Assembly (NCBI GenBank): GCA_949152475.1
Contig: OX424563.1
Span: 37,582,120-37,646,119, forward strand
Direction: 5' to 3'
DNA from: Terebella lapidaria
Taxonomy: Eukaryota; Annelida; Polychaeta; Terebellida; Terebellidae
Length of the DNA stretch: 64,000 nucleotides
Position numbers and translations under genes: made by a program. The notes under the pieces were generated by a model, which was not told where the DNA came from, made no database searches, and saw only the letters and a program-made list of their open reading frames with translations. This document shows, piece by piece, positions 4,928 through 35,324 of this stretch (position 1 is the stretch's first letter; every line of letters begins with the position of its first letter).

Positions 4928-4928
4928 T

Positions 4929-5484
4929 TGTAAAGTTTTAACGTCGTCCGCTATCTGGGATCCTCGAGGATAGTCCTTTCACGACAGGTCACCGCGGACG
5001 CTCATCCTTTATCCTCAGATCCTCGCGGATAGTTCGCTCACCGAGGGTCACTGCAGGCGCAGTAATTACTCTATCATTAGAACGTTAACCAGGTAGCAGC
5101 CCGCCCAGCGAGCCCAGACATGCGGACACCACTCAGATACAGGATCATCACCGTGGTGTTAACTGTAAGGCCGGCTCGCCGCGGTTCAGCCTCGGGGGAT
5201 GGAACCCTGGACAGCCCGACAGTCCGCCAGAGTCTGTGTCGCACCATCCCGGGTGGGAGACCGGTGATCCAGAGGGCATGCACCCCGGAGTCATCAAGGT
5301 CTTCGCAACCCGGGCCCCCTATTGAAGTCGTCCCCAGGGGCCCGTGAGGGCCTTAGCCACGGATCGAGGACGTAGAGCTCATGGCCGAGCCCTCCGTCGT
5401 CTCTCTCGCCTTGCTCTGAGACAACTTCTCTGAACAAAACGCCTCCAGAGTATATATAATACACTAGAGTGTTTAACAAAGACA
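4929..5484 (-). mobile_element. 5' LTR of the degenerate Ty3/gypsy element
   Basis: The boundary next to the primer-binding site is well defined (…ACTTTACA on the minus strand, plus coordinate 4929). The outer end is either TGTC at 5484 or TGTTAAAC at 5478. A TATA-like stretch TATTATATATACTC lies near 5445-5458 on the minus strand. The sequence aligns in reverse complement with 7190-7740 over several hundred bases, sharing GGCGAGCCGGCC, ACACCACGGTGATGAT and ATCTGAGTGGTGT, and both end in ACTTTACA. This supports the LTR call. Confidence 0.8.
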
Positions 5485-19136: not shown

Positions 19137-19512
19137 TGTAACGGTTTTGGGGCGTACCCAAAAGTTTCCCCTAGGTAATTCTATTAGTGTTTTGTGATAT
19201 TATGATTAAATAACCGTTTATTAAAATGTATATTTGTTTAAAGGTTCATACGGTTCCGTATTGTTAATGTTTTAAAGGTTTTCCGTCTCGGAACTTAGTA
19301 ATTTATGATGTCGGTAAAGCCGGAGACGGAGCCGGAACCGGAGACGGAACCGGACACGGAGCCGGAACAATGGAGTACAAAAACGTAATGACGTTATTTC
19401 CGGAAGGTCATGTGATCAGCCTCGTTTTCTGTTTAAAAGGTGACGTGTCAGCCACTGATTGGTTCTAGAGTGTTTTTAGAAATCCGGAAAATATCAGTGT
19501 TTTGGCGGACTA

Positions 19513-19562
19513 TGACGTCACAATAGGTTGGTCACGTGACATGGGTCTCAGGTCTATAAAAG
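19513..19562 (+). promoter_or_regulatory. LTR promoter: CRE, E-box, TATA
   Basis: TGACGTCA (19513-19520), GTCACGTGAC (CACGTG at 19533-19538) and TATAAAAG (19555-19562) form a compact RNA polymerase II promoter. An inverted CCAAT (GATTGG) lies upstream near 19458. Transcription would start near 19585 and give the genomic RNA. The motifs are seen directly; their use is inferred. Confidence 0.8.
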
Positions 19563-19764
19563 CCCCCGCTTCACAGCGGACGGCGGAGTTGGTGTCCTGA
19601 CGTCGACCTGTGCAGACCCCTTCTCCCATAGCAGAGTACTCCCTTGTTCCGGATAGAGTCATCCAGATGATAGCAGTTAAGTCTTCCGACTGTGAACTTG
19701 GAAAATAAACATGAAAACTTCAACCGAGTTGTTTTTCCGTGTTCGTTAGGGAACTGGAATTTAT

Positions 19765-19770
19765 AATAAA
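19765..19770 (+). terminator. LTR polyadenylation signal AATAAA
   Basis: AATAAA lies in GGAATTTATAATAAAGTTAG, about 210 bp downstream of the TATA box, and is conserved in all three LTRs. This matches the expected position of an R-region polyadenylation signal. Confidence 0.6.
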
Positions 19771-20030
19771 GTTAGTTCACCGGAAAAGAAAGTAATACGG
19801 AGTAAAGGGAGAAAAGACCACAGTCGGTTAAGACCAAGTTGTAACGACGTCTTAGGGTGATCTAAGAACCCAGATCACCGAGGAAGGAGACGGAGACGGA
19901 GACGGAGGTGGAATTCGACGGAGCAACTACGGAGGCGGTATCGGACGGAACAGTTGCAGAGACGGGAACGACGAAGCAGTTGCAGAGGCGGTACCGGACG
20001 ACGGAGTTGCAGAGGCAGTACCTGACGGAG

Positions 20031-20330
20031 CGGTTGCGGTAACCGGAAGTGGGAACACTTCCGAGATACTCCATTTCAGGTGCAGTCGCAGGTTGCGGTG
20101 AGGCGGAGCCAACCGGAGCAGATTGCAGTGCGGCGGAACCTGGCAGAGCGGTTGCAGTATTCGGAAACGGCAACGTTCCCGGATTCTTTATTCCAGGCGC
20201 AGTCGCAGTTTGCAGTAAGACGGAAAACGACGGAGCTGTTGCAGTAAAGCGGTTTCCCGACGGAGCAGTTGCAGTACCCGGAGACGGAAACGCCTCCGGA
20301 TCCTTACTTTACAGGTGCAGTTGCAGATTA
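20031..20330 (+). ncRNA. U5 leader repeat with three GNRA-loop hairpins
   Basis: A roughly 118-bp sequence is repeated three times (starts near 20031, 20149 and 20266). Each copy holds a hairpin with 8-nt arms and a 4-nt loop. Hairpin 1 is 20044-20063 (arm CGGAAGTG, loop GGAA, perfect). Hairpin 2 is 20162-20181 (arm CGGAAACG, loop GCAA, one A-C mismatch). Hairpin 3 is 20279-20298 (arm CGGAGACG, loop GAAA, one A-C mismatch). All loops fit GNRA, and stem positions differ in a partly compensatory way. This is a leader RNA structure, not a separate gene; a packaging or dimerisation role is a guess. Confidence 0.6.
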
Positions 20331-20530
20331 GCAGTCGGACAACGGTTAAGAGGTCCATTCCAGACCACGCTACCAACCTTAGAGACTTCTAGCCGGAGTT
20401 CAACCGTACAGCAGTAGCAGTTTCCCGGAGTTTTACCGTTTCAGCTCCGGTTGAACAACAACTCACCCACCTCCATAGAAAACCGGTTCATCAAGACGTC
20501 ACAGAAGGGTGCAAACCCGTTACAACTTTT

Positions 20531-20548
20531 TGGTGGCAGCGGTGGGAT
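20531..20548 (+). promoter_or_regulatory. Primer-binding site, tRNA-Leu
   Basis: TGGTGGCAGCGGTGGGAT, 6 nt after the LTR end, is complementary at all 18 positions to the 3' end, including CCA, of the metazoan tRNA-Leu (AAG/UAG) as I recall it from vertebrates. It would prime minus-strand synthesis. Confidence 0.85.
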
Positions 20549-20558
20549 CATCTGCAGT

Positions 20559-21839
20559 ATGACTACTAGACGGGGCAAATTGGCGGAACAGCAGCTGAAG
20601 GCAGCCGTGTCGGACACGGAGCAGCCTGTAGGAGCAGTAGGGGCTGAGCCGTTGCAGATGCCGGTTGCGGAAAAGGAAGCAGTTCGTCCTGCCGAGCGAA
20701 AGGTGTTGCAGCCGGAAATGCAGAAAGCAGTTGCAGAAGAGCCCCTTCGGGTTCCTCAAGGAGTACAGCCTGCAGAGCAGTTAGCAGAAGCGGAAATTAA
20801 CTTTCCGGACCAGGCTGGCGATCGGGAACCGGATGCGGAACCGGAAGGCGGAGAGAATTTAGTCGACAATCTGACCAGATTATTGGCGACCCAAATGGAG
20901 GTGTTTCAGCAGCACCTGGCAGTAACCGGAAAGCAGCAGCAGGCAGAAGCAGTACAACAACCAGCACCAAGGGCAGGAGTAGCCAGATTAATGACGTACG
21001 ACGGAACTGATCCGTGGCCGGAGTATGAGGCTCACCTCCTTGAATACGCTCGGTACTACCGTTGGACAGCAGAGGAAAAGGCGCTGAACTTATGTGTCAG
21101 TTTGAGAGGTAACGCCCGCAGCATACTACTGGATCTGTCCGCGGAGCAGAGACGCAGCTTTGATACGGTTGTGGCGGCATTAAAACAGCAGTTTTGTCCG
21201 GGGGAGAAAACATTTGTTTTCCAGGCGGAATTGCAGACACGGAAATTGCAGCCGGAGGAGGAGCTGTCCGAGCTGGCCAGAGACATACGGAGCAAGACGC
21301 GGCTAGCTTACCCAAAAGCAGATCCGGCAACAACAGAAGTGCTCATGAAGATGCATTTCTGCAACAGCCTGACTAACCGAGATATGCGGTTGTCGGTATT
21401 GAAAAGCCACCCGGAAACGCTGGCGCAGGCCCTGGCTTCCGCTACCGAGTATGAGAGCATCATGAAAACGGACAACAGCAGACCAGCGGAGCGACACCGG
21501 ACGAGGCAGCTGAACACGGAGCCGGAGTGGAGCCAGCAGGTGAACGAATTGCGGAAGCAAGCCGAGCAGACTCAGCAGCAGTTGGCGGATCTGATGACTC
21601 AGGTCAAGGAAGCGGTTAGCCGGCAGCAGCAGCAGCGCAGTTCCCGAGCAGATTTAGAATGCTTCAACTGTAACCGGAAGGGGCATTTTGCCCGAGACTG
21701 TAGGCAGCCGAAGCAGCAGCAGCAGCGGCGTCAACCACAACAGCAGCAGTCGCCGCGACAACAGCAGCAGCAGCCGCAGCAGCAGCAGCAGCAACAACTG
21801 CAGCAGCCACGACAGCAGCAGCAGCAGCCGGAAAACTAG
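20559..21839 (+). CDS. gag: Gag polyprotein
   Basis: 426 residues starting at the first ATG after the primer-binding site (MTTRRGKLAEQQ). An upstream extension of the open frame crosses the LTR end and the primer-binding site and is not used here. The N-terminal third is acidic and Ala/Glu-rich. The middle (residues about 150-310) is a capsid-type Gag domain with MTYDGTDPWPEYEAHLLEYA and LSELARDIRSKTRLAYP. A coiled-coil-like Gln-rich stretch follows, then a CCHC zinc knuckle CFNCNRKGHFARDC near residue 370, then a long poly-Gln tail encoded by CAG repeats. Gag builds the particle and binds RNA. Pol lies in the -1 frame and overlaps the CAG tail. No inactivating change is seen. Confidence 0.95.
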   Translation: MTTRRGKLAEQQLKAAVSDTEQPVGAVGAEPLQMPVAEKEAVRPAERKVLQPEMQKAVAEEPLRVPQGVQPAEQLAEAEINFPDQAGDREPDAEPEGGENLVDNLTRLLATQMEVFQQHLAVTGKQQQAEAVQQPAPRAGVARLMTYDGTDPWPEYEAHLLEYARYYRWTAEEKALNLCVSLRGNARSILLDLSAEQRRSFDTVVAALKQQFCPGEKTFVFQAELQTRKLQPEEELSELARDIRSKTRLAYPKADPATTEVLMKMHFCNSLTNRDMRLSVLKSHPETLAQALASATEYESIMKTDNSRPAERHRTRQLNTEPEWSQQVNELRKQAEQTQQQLADLMTQVKEAVSRQQQQRSSRADLECFNCNRKGHFARDCRQPKQQQQRRQPQQQQSPRQQQQQPQQQQQQQLQQPRQQQQQPEN

Positions 21840-21890
21840 AGCGGGTCGCGGAAAAGGGGAAATCCGGGACCCGGAAGAGAGGACACCCCC
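21830..21890 (+). promoter_or_regulatory. Candidate -1 ribosomal frameshift region at gag-pol junction
   Basis: Gag ends CCG GAA AAC TAG at 21839. Pol is in the -1 frame, which is already open from about 21706 and reads through the Gag stop. GGAAAAC just before the stop lets the A-site tRNA re-pair after a -1 slip (AAC to AAA), although the P-site pairing is imperfect, so it is not a canonical slippery heptamer. Downstream, GGGG (21856-21859) can pair with CCCC (about 21886-21890) around a small TCCGG/CCGGA hairpin. The CAG tract upstream is an alternative slip site. Confidence 0.4.
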
Positions 21891-21901
21891 ATAACCGGCA
21901 G

Positions 21902-24900
21902 GTGGTTCACGGACCCGGTCCCAGGGGCGAGGTGGGCATGTGTGTGACAGCCAGAGTATGCGGAGAGCCAGTAACGCTGATAATCGACACCGGCAGCACT
22001 GTCACAATGCTCAACCTACAAACCTGGGAACGGATCCGGAAACCCGGAATGAAGCTGAAGCGGTCGCCGATTCGTCTTTCAATGGTTGACGGAAGTAACA
22101 TACGGACACATGGCCGGAAAGAACTCCCACTCAACATCGCAGGAGTAGCTGAGACCGTGACGTTCGAGATTGCAGACTGTGAAGACGAAGGAATACTGGG
22201 AATGGATTTCATCCGTTCCCGGATATCCGGCATAAATTTTGACCGAATGACCATGCAGATGGGCAGCCAGGAGGTGTTCCTCACCATGTTCGAGCAGACC
22301 AGGGAGCCGTTTCCGATCATCGCTGTAGCAGATTACCAAATTCCGCCGGAAACGGAACAGCTGATTATAGGACAAGCAGAGAGTGTCCGTGAAGCAGAAG
22401 GAGTACTAGAAATGCCGCAGGAGCCTACTGAGAAAAGACCTTGGCTGATCGGGAGAACTTTATCCCGGATAAAGCAAGGAACAGTCCCGGTTCGAGTGAT
22501 CAACGTGATGGCAGAGCCGGTAATCATCAAGAAAGGAGCGCAGTTGGCGACGATGACCACCTTAGCAGCCGGTTGCAGTGTTGTGCCGTTGGCGGAGCGG
22601 AGCCGGAAGGTGCAGATTTCCACGGAGTCGGAGGCCGGGCGGAATTGGAGCGGGTACGAGAAGCTGCGGCAGTTAGCAGAGCAGACCCAGGATGCAGTGC
22701 CGAGTCATTTCCGCGAGAGAGTAACCGACCTCCTATTTCGGAATAAGCCGACCTTCAGTAATGATGCCGGAGAACTGGGGCAGACCAACGAGGTACAACA
22801 TCAGATAAACACGGGCAGTCACCGGCCGATTAAGCAGCCAGCCAGACGAATTCCGCCAGACAAGAGAGAGCTGGTGAGCAGTCTGATTCAGGAGATGAAA
22901 GACAAGAACGTCATTGAAGAAAGTAGCAGTCCGTGGGCTTCCCCGATTGTCCTCGTGAAGAAAAAGGATGGGACCACCCGGTTCTGCGTCGATTACCGGC
23001 GGTTAAATGCAGTCACGGAGAAAGATGCTTATCCGTTGCCGAGAATAGACGACACCATAGCAGCCTGTGCAGACGCCAAATGGTTCTCCACTCTCGACCT
23101 GACCAGTGGCTACTGGCAGGTCGGGATGGATGAAGACGCCCGGAAAAAGTCGGCCTTCTGTGTTCCTGGCGGCCTTTACCAGTTCAAAGTAATGAGTTTC
23201 GGCTTGTGCAATGCTCCGGGTACGTTCGAGCGGTTGATGGAGAAGGTGCTAGGCGGTTTGTCCTGGAAGACCTGCCTCATATATCTGGACGACATCATAG
23301 TCTACAGCAAGACCCTGGAGGATCACATCCGTGATCTTCAGGAGGTGTTCAGCAAGCTGAGAGAGGCAGACCTAAAAGTCAAACCGTCAAAATGCAAGTT
23401 CTTCCAGCCGGAGGTGTCTTTCCTAGGTCACATAGTCGGCAGAGACGGTATCCGCACCGACCCGGCAAAAACGGAGGCAGTACGGAAGTGGCGGACACCC
23501 ACCAACCTGACGGAGCTGCGCAGTTTTCTGGGACTTTGCTCCTATTACCGGAAGTTCGTGCCGAAGTTCTCCGAGATTGCAGCGCCGCTGAATCACTTGA
23601 CGGAAAAAGGGGTGCAGTTTCGGTGGCAGACGGAGCAAGAGCAGGCATTTGCAGAGCTGAAGAACCGCCTAGTATCGGCACCGATACTCGGGTACCCAAG
23701 GGAGCAAGGCCGATATATCCTGGACACGGACGCCAGTGACACCGGGCTGGGAGCAGTACTGTCACAGAAGCAGGGCAACCAGGAGCGGGTGATAACCTAC
23801 TTGAGCCGCAGTTTAACCAAAGAAGAACGGAGATATTGTGTCACCCGGAAGGAGCTCCTGGCGGTTGTGTTCGCGGTACAGAAGAATAAGCAGTACTTGC
23901 TGGGACGACACTTCCTCCTTCGCACAGATCATGGCAGTCTTACCTGGCTTATGAATTTCAAGGAGCCCCAGGGGCAGGTAGCCCGGTGGATTGAGCTCCT
24001 GAGTGAGTTTCATTTCGACATCGAACATCGTCCGGGGCGAATCCATAATAACGCAGATGCCTTGTCCAGATCCCCATGCAGCCAATGCGGAAAAATCGAC
24101 TGGAAACAAGCCAAGATAGACGCCTGGAACTACGGAGAAAGGATCCGGCAGACACGAAGTGAAGAAACTCCTCAGCCCAAGCCAAGGAAGGGGGGACGCC
24201 GGAAGCGGTCACGAAGATCGGGCGGAGAAGCAGAACTGACGGAGGAAGCAGCGTCCCGGAAGCCGGTTGCGGTTGCGGTTGCGGTGACGGAGGAAGCAGC
24301 GTCCCGGAAGCCGGTCGCGGTTGCGGTGACGGAGGAAGCAGCGTCCCGGAAGCCAGTTGCGATTGCGGTGACGGAGAAAGCAGCGTCCCGGAAGCCGGTT
24401 GCGGTTGCGGTGACGAAGGAAGCAGTCCCAAGGAAGGCGGTTGCAGTAGCGGAGAAAGCAGCGTCCCGGAAGCCGGTTGCGGTTGCGGTGACGGAGAAGG
24501 CAGTTCCAGGAAAAATGGATGCGGTTGCAGAGCAGATTAGGCTGGCGGAAAATGCGGACCAGGATACTGTGCTGGGGCAGAAATATCGACCCGATGATTT
24601 GCGGAGAATGCAGCAAGCAGAACCTTGGTACCCACTGGTGACGTCGCTGATCGACGGGAGCGGTACAGCTGGCAGTGCAGACTTTTCCAGCATGAGCAGC
24701 GAGGAGAAAGTGCTGTACTGGATGCGGAAGACCTTGCTGAAAGTCGACGGAGTAGTCTACCGGAAATGGAAAACGGCGGAAGGAACCAGCCGAATACAGT
24801 TAATAACCCCGAAGGAGCTGAGACAGGAGATTTTCCGTCTGGCCCATCAGAGCCGGACGGGAGGACACCTCGGAAGCAGAAGGATGGCGGCTAGCATTCG

Positions 24901-25993
24901 GAGGCGGTATTTCTGGCCGGCTATGATGCGGGACATAAAGCAGTGGGTGCTGAGCTGTGACGAATGTGCGTCAAGAAGTATGCAGAACTTGAAACGATCT
25001 CCGATGCAGAAATACCGGGTTGGAGCGCCCATGGAGAGGGTGGCAATGGACGTGATGGGTCCGTTACCTAAATCCACCCGGGGGAACCGGTACATCTTAG
25101 TAATCGGTGATTACTTCACCAAGTGGGTAGAGGCTTACCCGATGCCGAATCAGGAAGCGGTGACGGTTGCGGACATATTCGTCAACCAGTTTGCAGCGCG
25201 GTACGGTATCCCGATGGACATCCACACCGACCAAGGCAGAAATTTCGAGTCCGACTTGCTGAGAAATGTTTGCAGAATCCTGGGGATTCACAAGACACGG
25301 ACAACCGCTTTCCGACCTCAGTCGGACGGTTTCATTGAGCGATTCAACCGGACGCTGCAGCAGATCCTGAGCCTGTACGTAAGCGAGCGGCAGACCAACT
25401 GGGATCAGCTAGTTCCGTTGGCGATGGCAGCTTACCGGAGTACCCCGCAGGAGACAACCGGGCAGAGTCCCAATTTGCTGATGCTGGGCAGAGAAGTCAA
25501 CACTCCGGTAGAGTTACTGATTGGCAGGCCGCCGGGCGAATCGACAGCAGAAGTAACAGAGTACGGCAGTCAGCTCCGGGAGCGACTAGAAGCAGTATAC
25601 AAGGCGGTTCGAGCGAAATCTGGCAGAGAGATGGAACGGCATAAGAAGCTGTACGACCGGAGGAAGGTCGACAATCAGTTCCAGCCAGGAGACCGAGTGT
25701 GGATGGCGGTCAAAACACGAAAGAAGGGCAAAGCTCCCAAGTTGCAGAGGAAGTGGAGCGGTCCAAAGCTAGTGCTGAGCAGATTTACCGACGTAACCTA
25801 CGAGATTGCAGAGAGTGAAACTCGGCAGAAGGTGGTTCACTTCGATTTGCTGAAACCGTATAATGGTGTCAAGCATCCGAGATGGATGAAGCGGAGAATG
25901 GCGGATTCCTGGAGGCAGACGGAGCCGCCGAAGCAGAGTAGTGTTCCGGAGACGGAACAGACGGTCTCTGAGTCAGATACGGACTCGGAGTAA
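21902..25993 (+). CDS. pol: Pol polyprotein (protease, RT, RNase H, integrase)
   Basis: 1363 residues counted from the GTG at 21902; the frame is open back to about 21706, so it is probably made as a Gag-Pol fusion. Domains in order are: retropepsin with IIDTGST (Asp about residue 29) and GILGMDF near 99; RT about 300-560 with FCVDYRRLN, TLDLTSGYWQV and YLDD at 461-464; RNase H about 604-723 with TDASDTG, the RKELLAV Glu, TDHGSL and NADALSR; a tandem-repeat linker about 780-876; integrase with an HHCC zinc finger near 981-1025, a core with Asp about 1050, Asp about 1110 and Glu about 1146 (DD35E); and a GPF-type C-terminal domain ending in FDLLKPYN. No chromodomain is visible. All catalytic residues are present and no stop interrupts the frame, so the enzyme set looks functional. 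Confidence 0.97.
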   Translation: MVHGPGPRGEVGMCVTARVCGEPVTLIIDTGSTVTMLNLQTWERIRKPGMKLKRSPIRLSMVDGSNIRTHGRKELPLNIAGVAETVTFEIADCEDEGILGMDFIRSRISGINFDRMTMQMGSQEVFLTMFEQTREPFPIIAVADYQIPPETEQLIIGQAESVREAEGVLEMPQEPTEKRPWLIGRTLSRIKQGTVPVRVINVMAEPVIIKKGAQLATMTTLAAGCSVVPLAERSRKVQISTESEAGRNWSGYEKLRQLAEQTQDAVPSHFRERVTDLLFRNKPTFSNDAGELGQTNEVQHQINTGSHRPIKQPARRIPPDKRELVSSLIQEMKDKNVIEESSSPWASPIVLVKKKDGTTRFCVDYRRLNAVTEKDAYPLPRIDDTIAACADAKWFSTLDLTSGYWQVGMDEDARKKSAFCVPGGLYQFKVMSFGLCNAPGTFERLMEKVLGGLSWKTCLIYLDDIIVYSKTLEDHIRDLQEVFSKLREADLKVKPSKCKFFQPEVSFLGHIVGRDGIRTDPAKTEAVRKWRTPTNLTELRSFLGLCSYYRKFVPKFSEIAAPLNHLTEKGVQFRWQTEQEQAFAELKNRLVSAPILGYPREQGRYILDTDASDTGLGAVLSQKQGNQERVITYLSRSLTKEERRYCVTRKELLAVVFAVQKNKQYLLGRHFLLRTDHGSLTWLMNFKEPQGQVARWIELLSEFHFDIEHRPGRIHNNADALSRSPCSQCGKIDWKQAKIDAWNYGERIRQTRSEETPQPKPRKGGRRKRSRRSGGEAELTEEAASRKPVAVAVAVTEEAASRKPVAVAVTEEAASRKPVAIAVTEKAASRKPVAVAVTKEAVPRKAVAVAEKAASRKPVAVAVTEKAVPGKMDAVAEQIRLAENADQDTVLGQKYRPDDLRRMQQAEPWYPLVTSLIDGSGTAGSADFSSMSSEEKVLYWMRKTLLKVDGVVYRKWKTAEGTSRIQLITPKELRQEIFRLAHQSRTGGHLGSRRMAASIRRRYFWPAMMRDIKQWVLSCDECASRSMQNLKRSPMQKYRVGAPMERVAMDVMGPLPKSTRGNRYILVIGDYFTKWVEAYPMPNQEAVTVADIFVNQFAARYGIPMDIHTDQGRNFESDLLRNVCRILGIHKTRTTAFRPQSDGFIERFNRTLQQILSLYVSERQTNWDQLVPLAMAAYRSTPQETTGQSPNLLMLGREVNTPVELLIGRPPGESTAEVTEYGSQLRERLEAVYKAVRAKSGREMERHKKLYDRRKVDNQFQPGDRVWMAVKTRKKGKAPKLQRKWSGPKLVLSRFTDVTYEIAESETRQKVVHFDLLKPYNGVKHPRWMKRRMADSWRQTEPPKQSSVPETEQTVSESDTDSE
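24239..24530 (+). repeat. In-frame tandem repeat within pol (RNase H-integrase linker)
   Basis: About six imperfect units of 14-18 codons, each reading like EEAASRKPVAVAVT or a shorter variant, separate RNase H from integrase. At DNA level the unit is GACGGAGGAAGCAGCGTCCC followed by GGAAGCCGGTTGCGGTTGCG, with length differences in multiples of three. The peptide alternates a Glu-Ala-Ala-Ser-Arg-Lys-Pro block with Val-Ala runs. This is not part of any standard Pol domain. Confidence 0.9.
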
Positions 25994-26741
25994 AGCCGCA
26001 GAGGACGAAGAAATATGAGAAGATGGAGTGAGCTGTAGAGCAGGAGAAGGAGATAGCTGAGACCCTGGTAAAACGTTGAGTTCTGGCAGAGAGCGACCGC
26101 AAGAAGTCGGAGCAGTGAGCAAGTGCTGGTTCCGGAAACAGGGCGGAGAAAGGAAGCAGAGCGGAAAGCGGTGCAGAGACCGGATAGAGACATCCTAGAG
26201 GTTCTGACTGGGTTGAGCGCATAGTCAACCAGTCCAGGATAGTGGCCAGGGGTCCGGAAGAACCTGGGTTAGCGGTCTAGTATCTCCAGAGAAGCAGCTA
26301 CACGTCTTCCGTATACAGAGAATTAAGACGGAAAAGTTTTCCGGCTGTAGACATTCGACCGGAGTTTCCACTTAGCAGAGACAGTAAACCGACTGCAGAT
26401 CGACAGAAACGGAGAAACATCACCCCAGATAGGAAGGCGCCTCCTTCTGGACAGAATGTATGCAGTTTCCAGTGTCGACAAGCAGTAATACCAGTGAGCA
26501 GATATGCAGTTGACGAAGCAGTACAGATGGCGGAAACGCCCAACTTGCAGTCTAGATGTTCGTCTGAGAGGCAGATTCAACTGGCTGAGACTCTATTCAA
26601 CCCTCCTGATGGCAGAGATACTTCAAAATTGCAGATACTTCGCTCGGAGAAGCAGTTGAAAGGGAGCCGGAAAAACCCGGAGAAGCCGGTTGAGCCGGAG
26701 ACGGACACCTCTCGGTTAACGGTTGAGTTTTTGCATAATTG
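25994..26741 (+). other. Intergenic region between pol and the ORF3 promoter
   Basis: About 750 bp with the same GCAG/CGGAG-rich, purine-skewed composition as the rest of the element. A 99-codon frame at 26494-26793 shows no domain and runs through the promoter motifs, so I do not call it. The region presumably serves as 3' untranslated or spacer sequence. Confidence 0.5.
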
Positions 26742-26811
26742 TGACGTCACTCCTGAGGCAGCCAATCAGCGTGGAGCTTTTCAAGTCACGTGAGCAGAAA
26801 GGGTATAAAAG
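26742..26811 (+). promoter_or_regulatory. Internal promoter of ORF3: CRE, CCAAT, E-box, TATA
   Basis: TGACGTCA (26742-26749), CCAAT (26762-26766), CACGTG (26787-26792) and TATAAAAG (26804-26811) lie in that order about 235 bp before the ORF3 ATG. The same motifs, in the same order, occur in the LTR promoter, and the CCAAT-to-E-box spacing (25 bp) is identical in the ORF4 promoter. The motifs are seen; a separate ORF3 mRNA is inferred. Confidence 0.7.
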
Positions 26812-27044
26812 GGCCTTGAAATCGGGCTCTGACAGCAGTTGGAGAGCAGACCTCGAGCTGTGCACATCGCAGACAAAGTTTGGCGGAATCGAATCAAGTC
26901 CAGCATTTTCCGGCAGCGGCAGATTTTGCAGTGAAAAACGACTAAGTGTTTCCCGGAAGACCACCAGTCCGGAGAAGCGGTGCAGAAGCGGTGCAGTAAA
27001 AGCGGTGCAGTAGATCGACAATTTCAGTTTCCCGGCCTTCCGGA

Positions 27045-27746
27045 ATGGCCTACTCGGCGTTCCTTGAAAGACAAGATCGCGGCCGGAGCAGAGATTGGGC
27101 AAGCCCTCAGCCACTGGATTATAGCCGGCTGTGTAAGCGGTGTGACCGGATGTTCGAGAGTGCGACGGACAGGAGACGGCATGTGTGCCCAGCCCAGCGA
27201 TATCATTGCTGTTTGTGTGCCTTCTACGGCAACCGGGCGAACGACCTTAGGCGGCATCTTCGGGAGATGCACGGCTGGAAGTACCCTTCCGGGAACCGTC
27301 CTCCTCAGGACGAGGCAACCCTCAACCATGTGGGAACCTTTGATTCGGCCTGGCGGGGAACAGCAATGCAGTCCCGGCGAAGGCGGTTCCGGAGATTCTG
27401 CACACAGTCACCTAGGGAGAATCCAGTTCCGGAAACTTATGCGGACCAGCTTCCGTTTGGACCTGACTGGGATGCCGGAGCAGCCGCTCCCATCGAACAA
27501 CCGGAACCGATTGATCCTCCGGTTTGGGTTCCGGATCCGCAGGGCTGTCTTAGGGCAGCGGAAGACTCACCTCCGGAAGATTGGGAGCCGGAACTGGTGA
27601 TATCGACGGAACCAGAAGAGGAAGTTCAGCCGGTGGAAGACTGGGAGGCAGAGATCCGGGTGTGGGAATATAAACCACCTTCTCCCACCCCGGACACGGA
27701 ATCGGAGACTTCCGAGTACCACACCGCGGATGAGGAGGAACCCTGA
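27045..27746 (+). CDS. ORF3, accessory zinc-finger protein
   Basis: 233 residues from an ATG (MAYSAFLERQDRGR). The N-terminus carries two zinc-finger-like units. The first is C30-x2-C33-x12-H46, followed by C48 or H54 as the possible fourth ligand. The second is a classical C55-x2-C58-x12-H71-x4-H76 finger. The remainder is low-complexity: a short Arg-rich stretch (SRRRRFRRF) near residue 110, then a Pro/Glu/Asp-rich acidic tail ending HTADEEEP. The layout of fingers first, disordered charged tail after, resembles ORF4 downstream, suggesting an old duplication. It lies behind its own promoter block and outside pol, so it is probably made from a subgenomic mRNA. The family is not recognised; a nucleic-acid-binding role is inferred from the fingers. 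Only the last dozen codons recur in the second module. Confidence 0.75.
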   Translation: MAYSAFLERQDRGRSRDWASPQPLDYSRLCKRCDRMFESATDRRRHVCPAQRYHCCLCAFYGNRANDLRRHLREMHGWKYPSGNRPPQDEATLNHVGTFDSAWRGTAMQSRRRRFRRFCTQSPRENPVPETYADQLPFGPDWDAGAAAPIEQPEPIDPPVWVPDPQGCLRAAEDSPPEDWEPELVISTEPEEEVQPVEDWEAEIRVWEYKPPSPTPDTESETSEYHTADEEEP

Positions 27747-27897
27747 GGCGGATGGCAGAGTAGCGGTTGACGGAGGCGGATGGCAGAGTAGCGGTGGACG
27801 GAGGCGGTTGGCAGTGTAGCGGTAGACGGAGACGGTTGGCAGTTTGGCGGAGACGCAGAAGAAAGAGCGGTGGCAGTTAGCAGCAACAACAACACGG

Positions 27898-27924
27898 AAA
27901 AAAAAAAAAAAAAAAAAAAAAAAA
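27898..27924 (+). repeat. Internal A-tract (27 A)
   Basis: An uninterrupted run of A about 150 bp after the ORF3 stop and about 75 bp before the ORF4 promoter. It is repeated in the second module (31560-31587, 28 A). No AATAAA precedes it closely, so it is not an obvious fossil poly(A) tail. Confidence 0.95.
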
Positions 27925-27972
27925 TTATTCATTCAAGAAGACCACCAGGAGGAGTTGCAGTTTGCTGAGCAG

Positions 27973-28023
27973 CCAATCATCAAGCAGATAAGCCAGTCAC
28001 GTGACTTCCAGAGACTATAAAAG
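27973..28023 (+). promoter_or_regulatory. Internal promoter of ORF4: CCAAT, E-box, TATA
   Basis: CCAAT (27973-27977), GTCACGTGAC (CACGTG at 27998-28003) and TATAAAAG (28016-28023). CCAAT to E-box is 25 bp, exactly as in the ORF3 promoter, and E-box to TATA is 18 bp versus 17 bp. There is no CRE-like element immediately upstream. Confidence 0.7.
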
Positions 28024-28067
28024 GGGGCAGATAGCTGTTACCGGATGCAGAAGGCAGTTTGCTGTAG

Positions 28068-29978
28068 CTGAGTCAACATTGTCTCAAAGCAGAGAATCAG
28101 AATGCCGAAAGTAAAGACAACACCCGCAAGCCCCGCCCTCACCGGTGTGGAGACTGCAACCTAGAGTTCAAGAGCAAGCACACGTTGCTCCGGCATGTCA
28201 CGGAGCAGCACACGAGTGAAGTCACCGTCTTCGTCTGTCCGCAGTGTGAACATTGGAGCAGACGGAAAGAGGGGACACAGAAGCATCTGCAGTCCCGACA
28301 CGCAATGGACGCGAACCCGATTCGACTAAGGGTGGGCAGAGAGCAGTTTGAGGAGAAAAGCCTCCGGTCCAAGATGACCCCACGGAAAAGCAAGAAGCCG
28401 GTAACACGGCTTGACCAGTTGTCGGATACGGAGTCGGAGTCGGTAGGTTCGGTTTCGTCCCGGACCCGGTACCGTTCCGGTACCCAGTCGGTGGCCACAC
28501 TAGCAGCCGACGTTTCGTCCACGGAGGCGGAGAGCAGTTCGGAAGAGGAAGCGGAGCTGAAAATCATGGCAAGTGAAGACGAGTTGCAAGATCCAGGAGA
28601 CCCGAAGCCGGTTAAGCCGCCTGTGACCCGGAGTTCTTCCCGGAACACCTCCAGGAAAAACAGCCCAGACCCATCTCGAGGTACTGGAGCAGATCGAGAC
28701 CGCGGAAAGAAGCGGAGTCGCAGCCGTTCGCCGGATAAATCCGGACGCCATCAACGCCGAGAATATAGGAAGGAGAGCCCGGAGCGAGCCAAGGACCGAG
28801 GCGGAGAACGTGGCCGAGAGGAGAAACGACACACCCCACCCAAGTCTTCCGGAGGCAGCGTCAAGGGAAAAGGCAAGGTGGTGTATGACTACAAGTTCCG
28901 GCTGTTGGAGGAAGGTTCCAGCGGAGCAACGGCAGAAGTGGGAGTGGCGGACATTGCGGAAATGCAGAGCAGAGACGATGAGGAAGACCTTTTCCGGAGC
29001 CCACCTCCGAGAACGACTAGCAGTGGCAGGGTAGTGAGCAGCGTGATTGTCCGGCCCGGAGGCGGAGCAGGAAGCAGATCCAGCGGCCGAGCCGATAGCA
29101 GAGCAGATAGCCGAGCCGATAGCAGAGCAGATAACAGAGCAGATAGCCGAGCGGACAGCAGACCCATTGGCAGATCCGGAGGCAGATCGGAGACCAAAGC
29201 GGAAGGCGGAACCCGGAGCAGAGCTGGCAGTGAGACGGAGACCCGAGGATCCACGGAGAGAACATTGCCGGCAACCATTCAAGCAGTAGCCGGAAGCAGA
29301 ACCAGTTCAGCGGCTAGGGATGACGGAATGGAGTATTCCGCGTCTGACCGAGGCCATGCGGATGTGCAGAGAGCCCGGAGGGATCATGGGATCAGTATCC
29401 AGAGAGCCCGGAGGAGTATCCTGGTAGATCAAGCCAGGGCTACACCCGGAATCCTGTCTCCGGTGGAAACCCGACCTCGACAGTCTTCCAGTGAGCGGTC
29501 CGGGAGGAGCCAAGTCCGAGCACCAACCCAGAGTCCACCCTACACATTCTACCCGTTTGGCGGTCCTTCAACTCAACCGTGTCCGTCCCATTGTTTCCCG
29601 GTGAATATTGGGGGACGGAGCGCTTCCGTCTTTGCGCCTGCAGTCCCGGAGCACGCCAGATACTATGCAGTACGTTGGGGACCGGAGCAGTGGGGGCCAG
29701 CCGAGATGAGAGACTCCGGCGTCTACGTGGAGATCATGGAGCAGAGAGAGTCACCGTTTGGTCTCGTCCCGACCCGTCAGATCGTCCGGATTCCAGATTG
29801 GTCCATCCGGGACGAACGCCTCAGGAATGGGTTCTACGTCCCGCCCCAGTGGAGCCTCCATGATCCCGATCTTCTTCCGGTTGATGCCAGAGGAACAAGC
29901 TTTGATGCCAGAGGAACGACCGTTGGTACCGAATACCATTCCACCTCGTCCGCCGTCGGGAAGCAGTTCGCGCCGTGA
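28068..29978 (+). CDS. ORF4, accessory zinc-finger/RS-rich protein (copy 1)
   Basis: About 636 codons if counted from the first in-frame near-cognate codon (CTG) after the upstream stop; the true start is unknown. The first ATG downstream of the TATA (28102) is out of frame and ends after 20 codons, and there is no in-frame ATG before the fingers. Two classical C2H2 fingers lie at the N-terminus: C27-x2-C30-x12-H43-x4-H48 and C57-x2-C60-x12-H73-x4-H78. Then come an acidic Ser-rich part, an Arg/Ser-rich domain with KKRSRSRSPDKSG (about residues 205-260), a run of SRAD repeats (about 340-370) and a C-terminal part with ARYYAVRWGPEQWGP, YVEIMEQRESPFG and NGFYVPPQWSLHDPD that may be folded. It sits behind its own promoter. 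It is not recognised as a known family; RNA or DNA binding is inferred. Confidence 0.7.
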   Translation: MSQHCLKAENQNAESKDNTRKPRPHRCGDCNLEFKSKHTLLRHVTEQHTSEVTVFVCPQCEHWSRRKEGTQKHLQSRHAMDANPIRLRVGREQFEEKSLRSKMTPRKSKKPVTRLDQLSDTESESVGSVSSRTRYRSGTQSVATLAADVSSTEAESSSEEEAELKIMASEDELQDPGDPKPVKPPVTRSSSRNTSRKNSPDPSRGTGADRDRGKKRSRSRSPDKSGRHQRREYRKESPERAKDRGGERGREEKRHTPPKSSGGSVKGKGKVVYDYKFRLLEEGSSGATAEVGVADIAEMQSRDDEEDLFRSPPPRTTSSGRVVSSVIVRPGGGAGSRSSGRADSRADSRADSRADNRADSRADSRPIGRSGGRSETKAEGGTRSRAGSETETRGSTERTLPATIQAVAGSRTSSAARDDGMEYSASDRGHADVQRARRDHGISIQRARRSILVDQARATPGILSPVETRPRQSSSERSGRSQVRAPTQSPPYTFYPFGGPSTQPCPSHCFPVNIGGRSASVFAPAVPEHARYYAVRWGPEQWGPAEMRDSGVYVEIMEQRESPFGLVPTRQIVRIPDWSIRDERLRNGFYVPPQWSLHDPDLLPVDARGTSFDARGTTVGTEYHSTSSAVGKQFAP

Positions 29979-30263
29979 TGCTGGTGGGCAGTAGTCGTCG
30001 CAAGTTGTCGCAAGTCGTCGCAAGTCAAGTCGGCGCAAGGAGAAGAAAGAAAAACCGTTTCCCGGATTCTAGTATAATTAAGAGTTAAAAAGTGGGAAAC
30101 GGAACAAGCAAGATATCCGGGTACAGTGACGGTAAACTAGTTAAGAGGTACCAGTACCCGGATCACGGAAACAAGTTGTGTTTGATTTTACGGACAGTTT
30201 AACGGTTGACAATTTGTATATTTGTGATATGTGATATTGTTCTGTTCGGGACAAACAGAGTAT

Positions 30264-30276
30264 AAGGAAGGGGGAG
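30264..30276 (+). promoter_or_regulatory. Polypurine tract before LTR-b
   Basis: AAGGAAGGGGGAG directly precedes TGTAACGG. Position and composition fit the plus-strand primer site of LTR retroelements. The same tract precedes LTR-c. Confidence 0.85.
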
Positions 30277-31371
30277 TGTAACGGTTTTGGGGCGTACCCA
30301 AATGATTCCCCTAGGTAATTCTATTAGTGTTTTGTGATATTATGATTAAATAACCGTTTATTAAAATGTATATTTGTTTAAAGGTTCATACGGTTCCGTA
30401 TTGTTAATGTTTTAAAGGTTTTCCGTCTCGGAACTTAGTAATTTATGATGTCGGTAAAGCCGGAGACGGAGCCGGAACCGGAGACGGAACCGGACACGGA
30501 GCCGGAACAATGGAGTACAAAAACGTAATGACGTTATTTCCGGAAGGTCATGTGATCAGCCTCGTTTTCGGTTTAAAAGGTGACGTGTCAGCCACTGATT
30601 GGTTCTAGAGTGTTTTTAGAAATCCGGAAAATATCAGTGTTTTGGCGGACTATGACGTCACAATAGGTTGGTCACGTGACATGGGTCTCAGGTCTATAAA
30701 AGCCCCCGCTTCACAGCGGACGGCGGAGTTGGTGTCCTGACGTCGACCTGTGCAGACCCCTTCTCCCATAGCAGAGTACTCCCTTGTTCCGGATAGAGTC
30801 ATCCAGATGATAGCAGTTAAGTCTTCCGACTGTGAACTTCAACATGAAAACTTCAATCGAGTTGTTTTTCCGTGTTCGTTAGGGAACTGGAATTTATAAT
30901 AAAGTTAGTTCACCGGAAAAGAAAGTAATACGGAGTAAAGGGAGAAAAGACCACAGTCGGTTAAGACCAAGTTGTAACGACGTCTTAGGGTGATCTAAGA
31001 ACCCAGATCACCGAGGAAGGAGACGGAGACGGAGACGGAGGTGGAATTCAACGGAGCAACTACGGAGGCGGTATCGGACGGAGCAGTTGCAGAGACGGGA
31101 ACGACGAAGCAGTTGCAGAGGCGGTACCAGACGACGGAGTTGCAGAGGCAGTACCTGACGGAGCGGTTGCGGTAACCGGAAGTGGGAACACTTCCGAGAT
31201 ACTCCATTTCAGGTGCAGTCGCAGGTTGCGGTGAGGCGGAGCCAACCGGAGCAGATTGCAGTGCGGCGGAACCTGGCAGAGCGGTTGCAGTATTCGGAAA
31301 CGGCAACGTTCCCGGATTCTTTATTCCAGGCGCAGTCGCAGTTTGCAGTAAGACGGAAAACGACGAAGCTG
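30277..31371 (+). mobile_element. LTR-b, internal LTR truncated at its 3' end (1095 bp)
   Basis: It matches LTR-a from its first base to position 20238, then switches at 31371-31373 to sequence equal to 27711 onward (the last codons of ORF3). The final 286 bp of the LTR, including the third U5 hairpin, and the whole primer-binding site are missing. LTR-b shares with LTR-c, and not with LTR-a, the AAATGATTCCCC variant and the absence of the 7-bp insertion. Confidence 0.95.
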
Positions 31372-31372
31372 C

Positions 31373-31408
31373 TCCGAGTACCACACCGCGGATGAGGAGG
31401 AACCCTGA
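31373..31408 (+). pseudogene. ORF3 3' remnant in second module
   Basis: Only the last 11 codons of ORF3 (SEYHTADEEEP) and its stop are retained after the LTR-b junction. The fingers, the ATG and the ORF3 promoter are absent, so it cannot encode ORF3. Confidence 0.9.
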
Positions 31409-31635
31409 GGCGGATGGCAGAGTAGCGGTTGACGGAGGCGGATGGCAGAGTAGCGGTGGACGGAGGCGGTTGGCAGTGTAGCGGTAGACGGAGACGGTTG
31501 GCAGTTTGGCGGAGACGCAGAAGAAAGAGCGGTGGCAGTTAGCAGCAACAACAACACGGAAAAAAAAAAAAAAAAAAAAAAAAAAAATTATTCATTCAAG
31601 AAGACCACCAGGAGGAGTTGCAGTTTGCTGAGCAG

Positions 31636-31686
31636 CCAATCATCAAGCAGATAAGCCAGTCACGTGACTTCCAGAGACTATAAAAG
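31636..31686 (+). promoter_or_regulatory. Internal promoter of ORF4 copy 2: CCAAT, E-box, TATA
   Basis: CCAAT (31636), CACGTG (31661-31666) and TATAAAAG (31679-31686), with the same spacing as in copy 1 (offset 3663 bp). Confidence 0.7.
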
Positions 31687-31730
31687 GGGGCAGATAGCTG
31701 TTATCGGATGCAGAAGGCAGTTTGCTGTAG

Positions 31731-33641
31731 CTGAGTCAACATTGTCTCAAAGCAGAGAATCAGAATGCCGAAAGTAAAGACAACACCCGCAAGCCCCGCC
31801 CTCACCGGTGTGGAGACTGCAACCTAGAGTTGAAGAGCAAGCACACGTTGCTCCGGCATGTCACGGAGCAGCACACGAGTGAAGTCACCGTCTTCGTCTG
31901 TCCGCAGTGTGAACATTGGAGCAGACGGAAAGAGGGGACACAGAAGCATCTGCAGTCCCGACACGCAATGGACGCGAACCCGATTCGACTAAGGGTGGGC
32001 AGAGAGCAGTTTGAGGAGAAAAGCCTCCGGTCCAAGATGACCCCACGGAAAAGCAAGAAGCCGGTAACACGGCTTGACCAGTTGTCGGATACGGAGTCGG
32101 AGTCGGTAGGTTCGGTTTCGTCCCGGACCCGGTACCGTTCCGGTACCCAGTCGGTGGCCACACTAGCAGCCGACGTTTCGTCCACGGAGGCGGAGAGCAG
32201 TTCGGAAGAGGAAGCGGAGCTGAAAATCATGGCAAGTGAAGACGAGTTGCAAGATCCAGGAGACCCGAAGCCGGTTAAGCCGCCTGTGACCCGGAGTTCT
32301 TCCCGGAACACCTCCAGGAAAAACAGCCCAGACCCATCTCGAGGTACTGGAGCAGATCGAGACCGCGGAAAGAAGCGGAGTCGCAGCCGTTCGCCGGATA
32401 AATCCGGACGCCATCAACGCCGAGAATATAGGAAGGAGAGCCCGGAGCGAGCCAAGGACCGAGGCGGAGAACGTGGCCGAGAGGAGAAACGACACACCCC
32501 ACCCAAGTCTTCCGGAGGCAGCGTCAAGGGAAAAGGCAAGGTGGTGTATGACTACAAGTTCCGGCTGTTGGAGGAAGGTTCCAGCGGAGCAACGGCAGAA
32601 GTGGGAGTGGCGGACATTGCGGAAATGCAGAGCAGAGACGATGAGGAAGACCTTTTCCGGAGCCCACCTCCGAGAACGACTAGCAGTGGCAGAGTAGTGA
32701 GCAGCGTGATTGTCCGGCCCGGAGGCGGAGCAGGAAGCAGATCCAGCGGCCGAGCCGATAGCAGAGCAGATAGCCGAGCCGATAGCAGAGCAGATAACAG
32801 AGCAGATAGCCGAGCGGACAGCAGACCCATTGGCAGATCCGGAGGCAGATCGGAGACCAAAGCGGAAGGCGGAACCCGGAGCAGAGCTGGCAGTGAGACG
32901 GAGACCCGAGGATCCACGGAGAGAACATTGCCGGCAACCATTCAAGCAGTAGCCGGAAGCAGAACCAGTTCAGCGGCTAGGGATGACGGAATGGAGTATT
33001 CCGCGTCTGACCGAGGCCATGCGGATGTGCAGAGAGCCCGGAGGGATCATGGGATCAGTATCCAGAGAGCCCGGAGGAGTATCCTGGTAGATCAAGCCAG
33101 GGCTACACCCGGAATCCTGTCTCCGGTGGAAACCCGACCTCGACAGTCTTCCAGTGAGCGGTCCGGGAGGAGCCAAGTCCGAGCACCAACCCAGAGTCCA
33201 CCCTACACATTCTACCCGTTTGGCGGTCCTTCAACTCAACCGTGTCCGTCCCATTGTTTCCCGGTGAATATTGGGGGACGGAGCGCTTCCGTCTTTGCGC
33301 CTGCAGTCCCGGAGCACGCCAGATACTATGCAGTACGTTGGGGACCGGAGCAGTGGGGGCCAGCCGAGATGAGAGACTCCGGCGTCTACGTGGAGATCAT
33401 GGAGCAGAGAGAGTCACCGTTTGGTCTCGTCCCGACCCGTCAGATCGTCCGGATTCCAGATTGGTCCATCCGGGACGAACGCCTCAGGAATGGGTTCTAC
33501 GTCCCGCTCCAGTGGAGCCTCCATGATCCCGATCTTCTTCCGGTTGATGCCAGAGGAACAAGCTTTGATGCCAGAGGAACGACCGTTGGTACCGAATACC
33601 ATTCCACCTCGTCCGCCGTCGGGAAGCAGTTCGCGCCGTGA
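31731..33641 (+). CDS. ORF4, accessory zinc-finger/RS-rich protein (copy 2)
   Basis: A near-identical duplicate of 28068-29978, shifted by 3663 bp, with the same two C2H2 fingers, RS-rich domain, SRAD repeats and C-terminal region. I see two amino-acid differences, one in the first finger (F to L, TTC to TTG at 31830) and one near the C-terminus (VPPQWS to VPLQWS), plus a few silent changes. The same lack of an in-frame ATG applies. It is flanked by truncated LTR-b and full LTR-c. Because the two copies are so recent, their shared open frame says little about selection. Confidence 0.7.
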   Translation: MSQHCLKAENQNAESKDNTRKPRPHRCGDCNLELKSKHTLLRHVTEQHTSEVTVFVCPQCEHWSRRKEGTQKHLQSRHAMDANPIRLRVGREQFEEKSLRSKMTPRKSKKPVTRLDQLSDTESESVGSVSSRTRYRSGTQSVATLAADVSSTEAESSSEEEAELKIMASEDELQDPGDPKPVKPPVTRSSSRNTSRKNSPDPSRGTGADRDRGKKRSRSRSPDKSGRHQRREYRKESPERAKDRGGERGREEKRHTPPKSSGGSVKGKGKVVYDYKFRLLEEGSSGATAEVGVADIAEMQSRDDEEDLFRSPPPRTTSSGRVVSSVIVRPGGGAGSRSSGRADSRADSRADSRADNRADSRADSRPIGRSGGRSETKAEGGTRSRAGSETETRGSTERTLPATIQAVAGSRTSSAARDDGMEYSASDRGHADVQRARRDHGISIQRARRSILVDQARATPGILSPVETRPRQSSSERSGRSQVRAPTQSPPYTFYPFGGPSTQPCPSHCFPVNIGGRSASVFAPAVPEHARYYAVRWGPEQWGPAEMRDSGVYVEIMEQRESPFGLVPTRQIVRIPDWSIRDERLRNGFYVPLQWSLHDPDLLPVDARGTSFDARGTTVGTEYHSTSSAVGKQFAP

Positions 33642-33926
33642 TGCTGGTGGGCAGTAGTCGTCGCAAGTTGTCGCAAGTCGTCGCAAGTCAAGTCGGCGCA
33701 AGGAGAAGAAAGAAAAACCGTTTCCCGGATTCTAGTATAATTAAGAGTTAAAAAGTGGGAAACGGAACAAGCAAGATATCCGGGTACAGTGACGGTAAAC
33801 TAGTTAAGAGGTACCAGTACCCGGATCACGGAAACAAGTTGTGTTTGATTTTACGGACAGTTTAACGGTTGACAATTTGTATATTTGTGATATGTGATAT
33901 TGTTCTGTTCGGGACAAACAGAGTCT

Positions 33927-33939
33927 AAGGAAGGGGGAG
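33927..33939 (+). promoter_or_regulatory. Polypurine tract before LTR-c
   Basis: AAGGAAGGGGGAG directly precedes the last LTR, identical to the tract at 30264-30276. Confidence 0.85.
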
Positions 33940-35320
33940 TGTAACGGTTTTGGGGCGTACCCAAATGATTCCCCTAGGTAATTCTATTAGTGTTTTGTGA
34001 TATTATGATTAAATAACCGTTTATTAAAATGTATATTTGTTTAAAGGTTCATACGGTTCCGTATTGTTAATGTTTTAAAGGTTTTCCGTCTCGGAACTTA
34101 GTAATTTATGATGTCGGTAAAGCCGGAGACGGAGCCGGAACCGGAGACGGAACCGGACACGGAGCCGGAACAATGGAGTACAAAAACGTAATGACGTTAT
34201 TTCCGGAAGGTCATGTGATCAGCCTCGTTTTCGGTTTAAAAGGTGACGTGTCAGCCACTGATTGGTTCTAGAGTGTTTTTAGAAATCCGGAAAATATCAG
34301 TGTTTTGGCGGACTATGACGTCACAATAGGTTGGTCACGTGACATGGGTCTCAGGTCTATAAAAGCCCCCGCTTCACAGCGGACGGCGGAGTTGGTGTCC
34401 TGACGTCGACCTGTGCAGACCCCTTCTCCCATAGCAGAGTACTCCCTTGTTCCGGATAGAGTCATCCAGATGATAGCAGTTAAGTCTTCCGACTGTGAAC
34501 TTCAACATGAAAACTTCAACCGAGTTGTTTTTCCGTGTTCGTTAGGGAACTGGAATTTATAATAAAGTTAGTTCACCGGAAAAGAAAGTAATACGGAGTA
34601 AAGGGAGAAAAGACCACAGTCGGTTAAGACCAAGTTGTAACGACGTCTTAGGGTGATCTAAGAACCCAGATCACCGAGGAAGGAGACGGAGACGGAGACG
34701 GAGGTGGAATTCAACGGAGCAACTACGGAGGCGGTATCGGACGGAGCAGTTGCAGAGACGGGAACGACGAAGCAGTTGCAGAGGCGGTACCAGACGACGG
34801 AGTTGCAGAGGCAGTACCTGACGGAGCGGTTGCGGTAACCGGAAGTGGGAACACTTCCGAGATACTCCATTTCAGGTGCAGTCGCAGGTTGCGGTGAGGC
34901 GGAGCCAACCGGAGCAGATTGCAGTGCGGCGGAACCTGGCAGAGCGGTTGCAGTATTCGGAAACGGCAACGTTCCCGGATTCTTTATTCCAGGCGCAGTC
35001 GCAGTTTGCAGTAAGACGGAAAACGACGGAGCTGTTGCAGTAAAGCGGTATCCCGACGGGGCAGTTGCAGTACCCGGAGACGGAAACGCCTCCGGATCCT
35101 TACTTTACAGGTGCAGTTGCAGATTAGCAGTCGGACAACGGTTAAGAGGTCCATTCCAGACCACGCTACCAACCTTAGAGACTTCTAGCCGGAGTTTAAC
35201 TGTACAGCAGTAGCAGTTTCCCGGAGTTTTACCGTTTCAGCTCCGGTTAAATAACAACTCACCCACCTCCCTAGAAAACCGGTTCATCAAGACGTCACAG
35301 AAGGGTGCAAACCCGTTACA
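33940..35320 (+). mobile_element. LTR-c (3' LTR), 1381 bp
   Basis: A full-length LTR, TGTAACGG to CCGTTACA. By hand comparison it differs from LTR-a by roughly a dozen substitutions (about 1%) and lacks the 7-bp insertion that carries the extra AATAAA. It contains the promoter block, the R-region AATAAA and all three U5 hairpins (hairpin 1 starts at 34840). Confidence 0.95.
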
Positions 35321-35324
35321 GTAT
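35321..35324. other. Target-site duplication, right copy (GTAT)
   Basis: It directly follows the end of LTR-c and matches the left flank. Confidence 0.85.

Follow-up and report, generated by a model that had tools for sequence, protein, structure and literature searches.

A stretch of 64,000 nucleotides from the annelid Terebella lapidaria (GenBank assembly GCA_949152475.1, contig OX424563.1, positions 37,582,120 to 37,646,119 of the forward strand; hereafter referred to as the window, in whose own numbering all positions are given) contains a Ty3/gypsy long terminal repeat (LTR) retrotransposon with two additional genes, the open reading frames ORF3 and ORF4, located between pol and the 3' LTR. 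Both frames carry a C2H2-like zinc-finger pair near their start and recur in many copies in the same genome, where purifying selection acts on them; a short block that looks like the promoter region of the LTR precedes each. Their products are therefore discussed here as candidate regulators of the element itself. The principal features of the element are as follows.

19133 to 19136, no strand: 5' target duplication GTAT, with the matching copy at 35321-35324
19137 to 20524, forward strand: 5' LTR, with a CRE at 19513, the E-box TCACGTGA at 19532 and TATAAAAG at 19555
20531 to 20548, forward strand: likely primer binding site, read from the sequence and presumably matching the end of a leucine tRNA
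20559 to 21839, forward strand: gag, 426 amino acids, open, with a CCHC zinc knuckle
21938 to 25993, forward strand: pol, 1351 amino acids, open, with protease, reverse transcriptase, RNase H and integrase in that order
26742 to 26811, forward strand: block before ORF3, with TGACGTCA, AGCCAAT, TCACGTGA and TATAAAAG (26804)
27045 to 27746, forward strand: ORF3, 233 amino acids, with a C2H2-like finger pair, a basic middle and an acidic tail
27898 to 27924, forward strand: 27-base poly(A) run, downstream of ORF3 and ahead of the ORF4 block
27971 to 28023, forward strand: block before ORF4, with AGCCAAT, TCACGTGA and TATAAAAG (28016)
28068 to 29978, forward strand: first copy of ORF4, a stop-to-stop frame of 636 codons with the finger pair at about 28146-28304
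33927 to 33939, forward strand: polypurine tract ahead of the 3' LTR, read from the sequence
33940 to 35320, forward strand: 3' LTR

The element spans exactly positions 19137-35320, with the LTR termini TGTAACGG...CCGTTACA and GTAT flanking it on both sides, and its pol domain order together with these termini identifies it as a Ty3/gypsy LTR retrotransposon. The TG...CA ends of the LTRs, a target duplication of 4 bp within the range of 4-6 bp and the CCHC knuckle of gag are all features of this class, while a chromodomain, characteristic of the chromoviruses, found no Pfam match in pol. The closest pol relatives in a protein search (P0003 and P0005-P0009) share 56-70% identity across 30-98% of the query. 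The outer LTRs are 99.0% identical, with 14 mismatches in 1379 aligned bases and one 7-bp gap when the start of the 5' LTR is taken two bases late, and this divergence of 1.0% fits a recent insertion. An earlier note, prepared from the window sequence alone, had described a young Ty3/gypsy element with intact gag and pol, matching LTRs and a target duplication, and this description holds.

ORF3 combines its finger pair and basic middle with a tail in which 27 of the last 83 residues are acidic, and ORF4 joins its finger pair to a charged, Ser/Arg-rich body; as read in the copy L035, the fingers are followed by a Ser-rich acidic part, an Arg/Ser-rich part and a C-terminal part. The last residues of the window ORF4 are unlike those of most copies, whose main matches stop at residue 612-614. 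No finger model scored above the Pfam cut-off in either protein, and the assignment of the fingers is based on the Cys/His pattern, on matches to solved fingers and on the constraint described below. The best solved-structure match of the ORF4 finger pair is CTCF, over 54 residues without a gap; the best single stretch has an E-value of 5e-5, the whole-chain value of 1.6e-14 being a sum over several fingers. ORF4 outside the fingers does not match CTCF, and the resemblance is treated as a lead and not as a relationship. When the 60-residue finger region of ORF4 was used as query against the same genome, the best 150 of 777 candidates were all 97-100% identical, the search being saturated by element-like copies. 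Three other identities were considered and rejected. Neither protein is likely to be env-like in the manner of the errantiviruses, as a membrane-like segment is absent (top 19-residue hydropathy 0.13 in ORF3 and 0.81 in ORF4 of L035) and no Pfam family scored above the cut-off in ORF3 or ORF4, and the similarities of ORF3 to ORF4 as paralogues and of ORF4 to gag as its derivative are not significant.

The whole genome (761.6 Mb in 438 contigs) was searched for other copies. ORF3 has 203 matches, with an internal stop in 6 of the 150 listed, and 62 of the best 69 scored among 3538 ORF4 candidates, two of the 69 being those of the window itself, are free of stops; these counts are lower bounds, since the scored matches are the best ones. 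For closer comparison, 60 copies (L016-L075) were taken from the 150 ORF3 matches. Together with the window, all 61 retain the ORF3 ATG, with the frame open for 201-269 codons, and 57 have an ORF4 frame running from an ATG into the fingers, which extends over 580-640 codons in 33 copies and is shorter in 24. The end of pol lies about 1.05 kb upstream of ORF3 in all eight loci compared. Among 1000 dinucleotide shuffles of positions 25994-30276, none gave an open run of 636 codons and 14 gave one of at least 248 codons; thus, the length of ORF3 is weak evidence and that of ORF4 strong evidence for a gene. At the level of the family, both additional frames are real genes.

Purifying selection acts on both genes across the copies. 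For ORF3, the ratio of nonsynonymous to synonymous divergence (dN/dS, Nei-Gojobori, by subfamily comparison) is 0.21-0.31 in 60 of 61 copies; for ORF4 it is 0.11-0.15 in 33 copies. The collection of ORF3 copies by protein similarity lowers dN, and the ORF4 set is limited to long frames. The corresponding ratios of polymorphism (pN/pS) are 0.294 for ORF3 (codon bootstrap 0.207-0.400; 60 copies) and 0.132 for ORF4 (0.097-0.176; 33 copies). By part, the ratio falls to 0.010 in the ORF4 finger pair and is 0.171 in the ORF3 fingers and 0.354 in the ORF3 acidic tail, with no constraint on the N-terminal pieces (0.761 for ORF3 residues 1-29; 1.05 for ORF4 residues 1-15, where almost no change occurs). 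A codon-position test on 53 copies, which included broken ORF4 frames and employed 5000 permutations, agrees with these values. Variation at codon positions 1, 2 and 3 is 0.039, 0.042 and 0.116 in ORF3 and 0.016, 0.012 and 0.054 in ORF4, a bias reached by none of the permutations for either gene; three non-coding control stretches have no such bias (p 0.74, 0.17 and 0.80), nor is it significant in the finger part of ORF3 taken alone (p 0.13). The family proposed earlier, a gypsy lineage with two C2H2 proteins, one of them RS-like, downstream of pol, is thus borne out by many open copies and by dN/dS values well below 1, the two checks that had been suggested for it, and the presence of the frames beyond this copy speaks against the alternative raised with it, namely host exons captured in a single element.

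Each accessory gene is preceded by a block of CCAAT, TCACGTGA and a TATA word that looks like the LTR promoter region. All six occurrences of TATAAAAG in the window fall inside the element, one in each of three LTR pieces, one before ORF3 and one before each of two ORF4 copies, and TCACGTGA stands just upstream of every one of them. In the blocks of both accessory genes, CCAAT precedes the E-box by 24 bases; TGACGTCA is confined to the LTR pieces and the ORF3 block. Shuffles of positions 25994-30276 gave one E-box-TATA pair in 6 of 2000 trials and two in none; alignments as good as those of the blocks arose in 0 of 1000 shuffles for ORF3 with ORF4 and for the LTR with ORF4, and in 2 of 1000 for the LTR with ORF3. 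Among the 60 other copies, 58 have the pair ahead of ORF3, always with a gap of 11 (TATATAA being allowed), and 56 have it ahead of ORF4, always with a gap of 12; 50 have it in an LTR inside the compared stretch, the gap being 16 in 49 of these. Genome-wide, the exact pattern occurs 2584 times and its reversed form 7 times; the first 100 places comprise 65 with the gap of the LTR, 14 with that of ORF3, 13 with that of ORF4 and 8 others, and clusters such as LTR-ORF3-ORF4-LTR are repeated among them. It is the repeated occurrence at three places, together with constant spacing, that makes the case for promoters; conservation of the motifs was considered as proof of promoter function and is not supported (p 0.72 for ORF3 and 0.087 for ORF4). 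No AATAAA or ATTAAA is present between 21179 and 30345, so messages from all three starts would end at the shared LTR. The poly(A) run between ORF3 and the ORF4 block is perhaps nucleosome-excluding, and a run of at least 12 A is found at this place in 56 of the 60 other copies.

Since ORF3 and ORF4 are under selection and stand behind promoter-like blocks, the element probably encodes its own regulators. On balance, the features described above are best accounted for, with a confidence slightly above even, by a multicopy Ty3/gypsy family in which the region between pol and the 3' LTR encodes two nuclear regulators, expressed from promoters inside the element. Host factors reading CCAAT, CACGTG and TATA would start short messages at the internal blocks and at the LTR, all of them ending at the 3' LTR. 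The nearly invariant finger pair of ORF4 would bind nucleic acid, and its Ser/Arg-rich body would recruit the host transcription or RNA machinery; ORF3, with its fingers, basic middle and acidic tail, may be an activator or a silencing antagonist at element copies. Together they could raise or time the expression of gag-pol, in trans across copies. Among the functions put forward in the earlier note, which ranged from binding of element nucleic acid and control of splicing or transcription to directed integration and the countering of host silencing, the promoter-like blocks favour a regulatory one. The near invariance of the ORF4 finger pair (pN/pS 0.01) predicts a specific target, and a gypsy family with two selected finger proteins behind LTR-like blocks offers enough copies for direct testing. 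It thereby becomes possible to ask whether the promoters of retrotransposons are served by transcription factors that the elements themselves encode, and whether such proteins evolve against host silencing.

Several observations weigh against this interpretation. The motif columns of the blocks are no more conserved than their flanks. In the window, the ATG that usually heads ORF4 is not in the reading frame of the fingers, and the earliest ATG that is, at 28305, lies past them, placing the window among the four copies that lack an ATG-to-finger frame; the earlier description of two finger-headed frames is correct for ORF3 with its 233 codons and for the presence of fingers in the 636-codon ORF4 frame, but in this copy the fingers of ORF4 do not stand at its start behind a normal ATG. 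Copies with an intact ORF4 start and frame do exist. The genome counts are biased towards intact copies and the 60 copies compared were picked by hand. Codon-usage scoring trained on gag-pol gave no clear preference for the ORF3 and ORF4 frames, and the structure models of the two proteins, with mean pLDDT values of 48.5 and 38.6, are unusable. The sole relative of ORF3 in the protein search, P0001, is a group C copy, 96.7% identical to the copy L063; it probably comes from the same or a near species, and hence provides no evidence of ORF3 from elsewhere.

Rather less probable, and on the whole unlikely, is a post-transcriptional role, in which ORF4 would be an RS-type RNA-binding factor for splicing or export and ORF3 its partner. 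The Ser/Arg-rich body of ORF4 suits such a role, which also has a precedent in CERV of the Cer1 element, a nuclear protein needed for the export of genomic RNA (PMC10309623). CERV resembles the proteins predicted here in being a nuclear regulator encoded by an LTR retrotransposon itself, but it is produced through splicing and functions in RNA export, and the parts of that source consulted report no C2H2 pair. The fingers of ORF4, however, best resemble, though weakly, solved DNA-binding fingers, and the acidic tail of ORF3 suits transcription better.

It is likewise improbable that the genes are real and the blocks inactive LTR-like relics, the proteins being made from spliced or read-through LTR transcripts. 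The similarity of the blocks to the LTR could reflect ancestry alone, and the conservation of their motif columns, which does not exceed that of the flanks, is in keeping with relics; the E-box-TATA gaps, fixed in 58 of 58 and 56 of 56 copies, and the location of the pair ahead of each gene at a distance usual for promoters nevertheless argue for function.

Quite doubtful is the proposal that the proteins work against silencing by the host, or guide integration to chosen chromatin by tethering, and are not ordinary activators. Transposon-encoded anti-silencing proteins such as VANC exist, and the high copy number of the family, the ORF3 tail cassettes that vary far more than the rest, as expected in an arms race, and the position of the present copy at the edge of a satellite array are in keeping with this proposal, although one insertion site is uninformative on preference. 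Frames open by chance, or captured exons that lack a function, deserve hardly any credence, for although the A- and G-rich strand eases long frames (the 14 of 1000 shuffles reaching 248 codons), they are refuted at the family level by purifying selection on ORF3 and ORF4, by the codon-position pattern, by the many open copies and, for ORF4, by the shuffles.

Regulatory accessory genes are usually associated with complex retroviruses, and LTR retrotransposons are commonly pictured as having a single gag-pol promoter. The more far-reaching form of the regulator interpretation, offered tentatively and held to be somewhat short of probable, is that the family evolved independently a logic like that of complex retroviruses, with two zinc-finger trans-regulators, two internal promoters sharing the grammar of the LTR, feedback across copies and an arms-race-like reshuffling of ORF3 cassettes. 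The last component is suggested by divergence between copies, which in the second half of ORF3 (27281-27746) has a mean of 0.108 and a maximum of 0.208, as against means of 0.023-0.038 in the upstream DNA, the first half of ORF3, ORF4 and the ORF4 3' untranslated region, and is also raised in the repeat-rich ORF3 3' untranslated region, such between-group contrasts being exaggerated by the choice of copies by ORF3 similarity classes. Distances in the ORF3 second half correlate with those in the first half at 0.62 and with those in ORF4 at 0.09-0.10. Since the second half is far more diverged and is not co-inherited with ORF4, the pattern fits an exchange of ORF3 cassettes between lineages.

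Accessory genes are known from other elements. Plant Retand Ty3/gypsy elements carry TRP28 frames in a long region between pol and the 3' LTR, with predicted DNA binding and a proposed regulatory role (PMC11963269); the position of the accessory frames and their predicted regulatory nature are shared with the present family, as are tandem repeats in that region, whereas the Retand frames are antisense and of the TRP28 type and those described here are sense, C2H2-bearing, two per element and associated with LTR-like blocks. Assignment to the Retand type is not supported, as the conserved frames are sense and no Pfam match above the cut-off was obtained for ORF3 or ORF4, antisense frames not having been searched. 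Elements of the MDG1 group encode a nuclear sORF1 (short ORF) with a possible DNA-binding fold and a membrane fusogen, sORF2 (PMC11952523), and thus are also gypsy elements with two accessory proteins, one of them nuclear and possibly DNA-binding; their short frames, however, lie mostly upstream of gag and are thought to use the main start, while the present frames are longer, downstream of pol and without a membrane-like segment. In foamy viruses, a promoter within the genome, close to its 3' end, is followed by a regulator gene, Tas (PMC7828637). The likeness, at the level of sequence and of a possible manner of working and with no relationship to Tas claimed, is that the accessory genes here are immediately preceded by sequence resembling a promoter; the present elements differ in having no env gene, two predicted regulators and putative internal promoters. 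In the literature searched, of which coverage was partial, no element was seen to be described with a pair of sense-oriented C2H2 genes preceded by internal blocks like those of the LTR.

Searches outside the genome provided no counterpart of the two genes beyond P0001. For ORF4, the best 7988 candidates by shared words among 5.8 billion proteins gave only a Rho-factor entry at an E-value of 0.38, which is not a relative; no confirmed match for ORF3, ORF4 or pol was found in viral contigs, none for ORF4 in genome contigs and none for ORF3 in plasmids. A pol search of genome contigs gave seven distant loci. The best of these, L001 (6894-10070), is a distant gypsy relative with 91-base identical ends on a contig filed under a Calditrichota metagenome-assembled genome, where pol is followed by an Arg/Ser-rich frame of 1058 codons with one finger-like motif. 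The similarity of that frame to ORF4 is not significant and it has no E-box-TATA pair, so that it is a lead only.

The 3' half of the window element contains a 3.66-kb tandem duplication (27711-35036), in which the sequence starting near 27711 reappears 3662-3663 bases further on, from about 31373, and which accounts for a third, truncated LTR and a second ORF4.

30277 to 31373, forward strand: third LTR piece, cut off at the duplication junction
31373 to 33939, forward strand: second copy, with the end of ORF3, the ORF4 block (TATAAAAG at 31679) and ORF4 (31731-33641)

Between the middle LTR and the 3' LTR there are 3 differences in 1095 bases; between the middle LTR and the 5' LTR there are 10 in 1095, together with the 7-bp gap. 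The duplicated internal halves have 5 differences in 2572 bases and three short gaps. From these counts, the insertion probably predates the duplication. The 557-codon parts of the two ORF4 copies, from the ATGs at 28305 and 31968, differ by one residue. This duplication, the promoter-like blocks and the out-of-frame ORF4 start of the present copy had been overlooked in the earlier note. A second ORF4 stretch, resulting from duplication of the accessory region, is also present in each of the copies L019 and L074. Elsewhere in the genome, contig C3 carries four ORF3 copies about 2.26 kb apart, and finger pairs are spaced 2.7 kb on contig C6 and 2.5 kb on contig C4.

The element is surrounded by repeats. 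On its left is a satellite array of 73-74 bp units (14422-18229), and on its right satellite arrays of 30 bp and 65 bp units extend over more than 28 kb (35326-64000). The joined flanks have a 20-bp word in common with the 30-bp satellite on the right, which indicates insertion at the edge of a satellite array. Farther upstream, degraded minus-strand remnants of gypsy-like gag and pol (1-5450, judged by eye), a 413-bp tandem repeat (3243-4073) and a minus-strand frame resembling the end of a long interspersed nuclear element (LINE) reverse transcriptase (11896-12279, also judged by eye) were observed.

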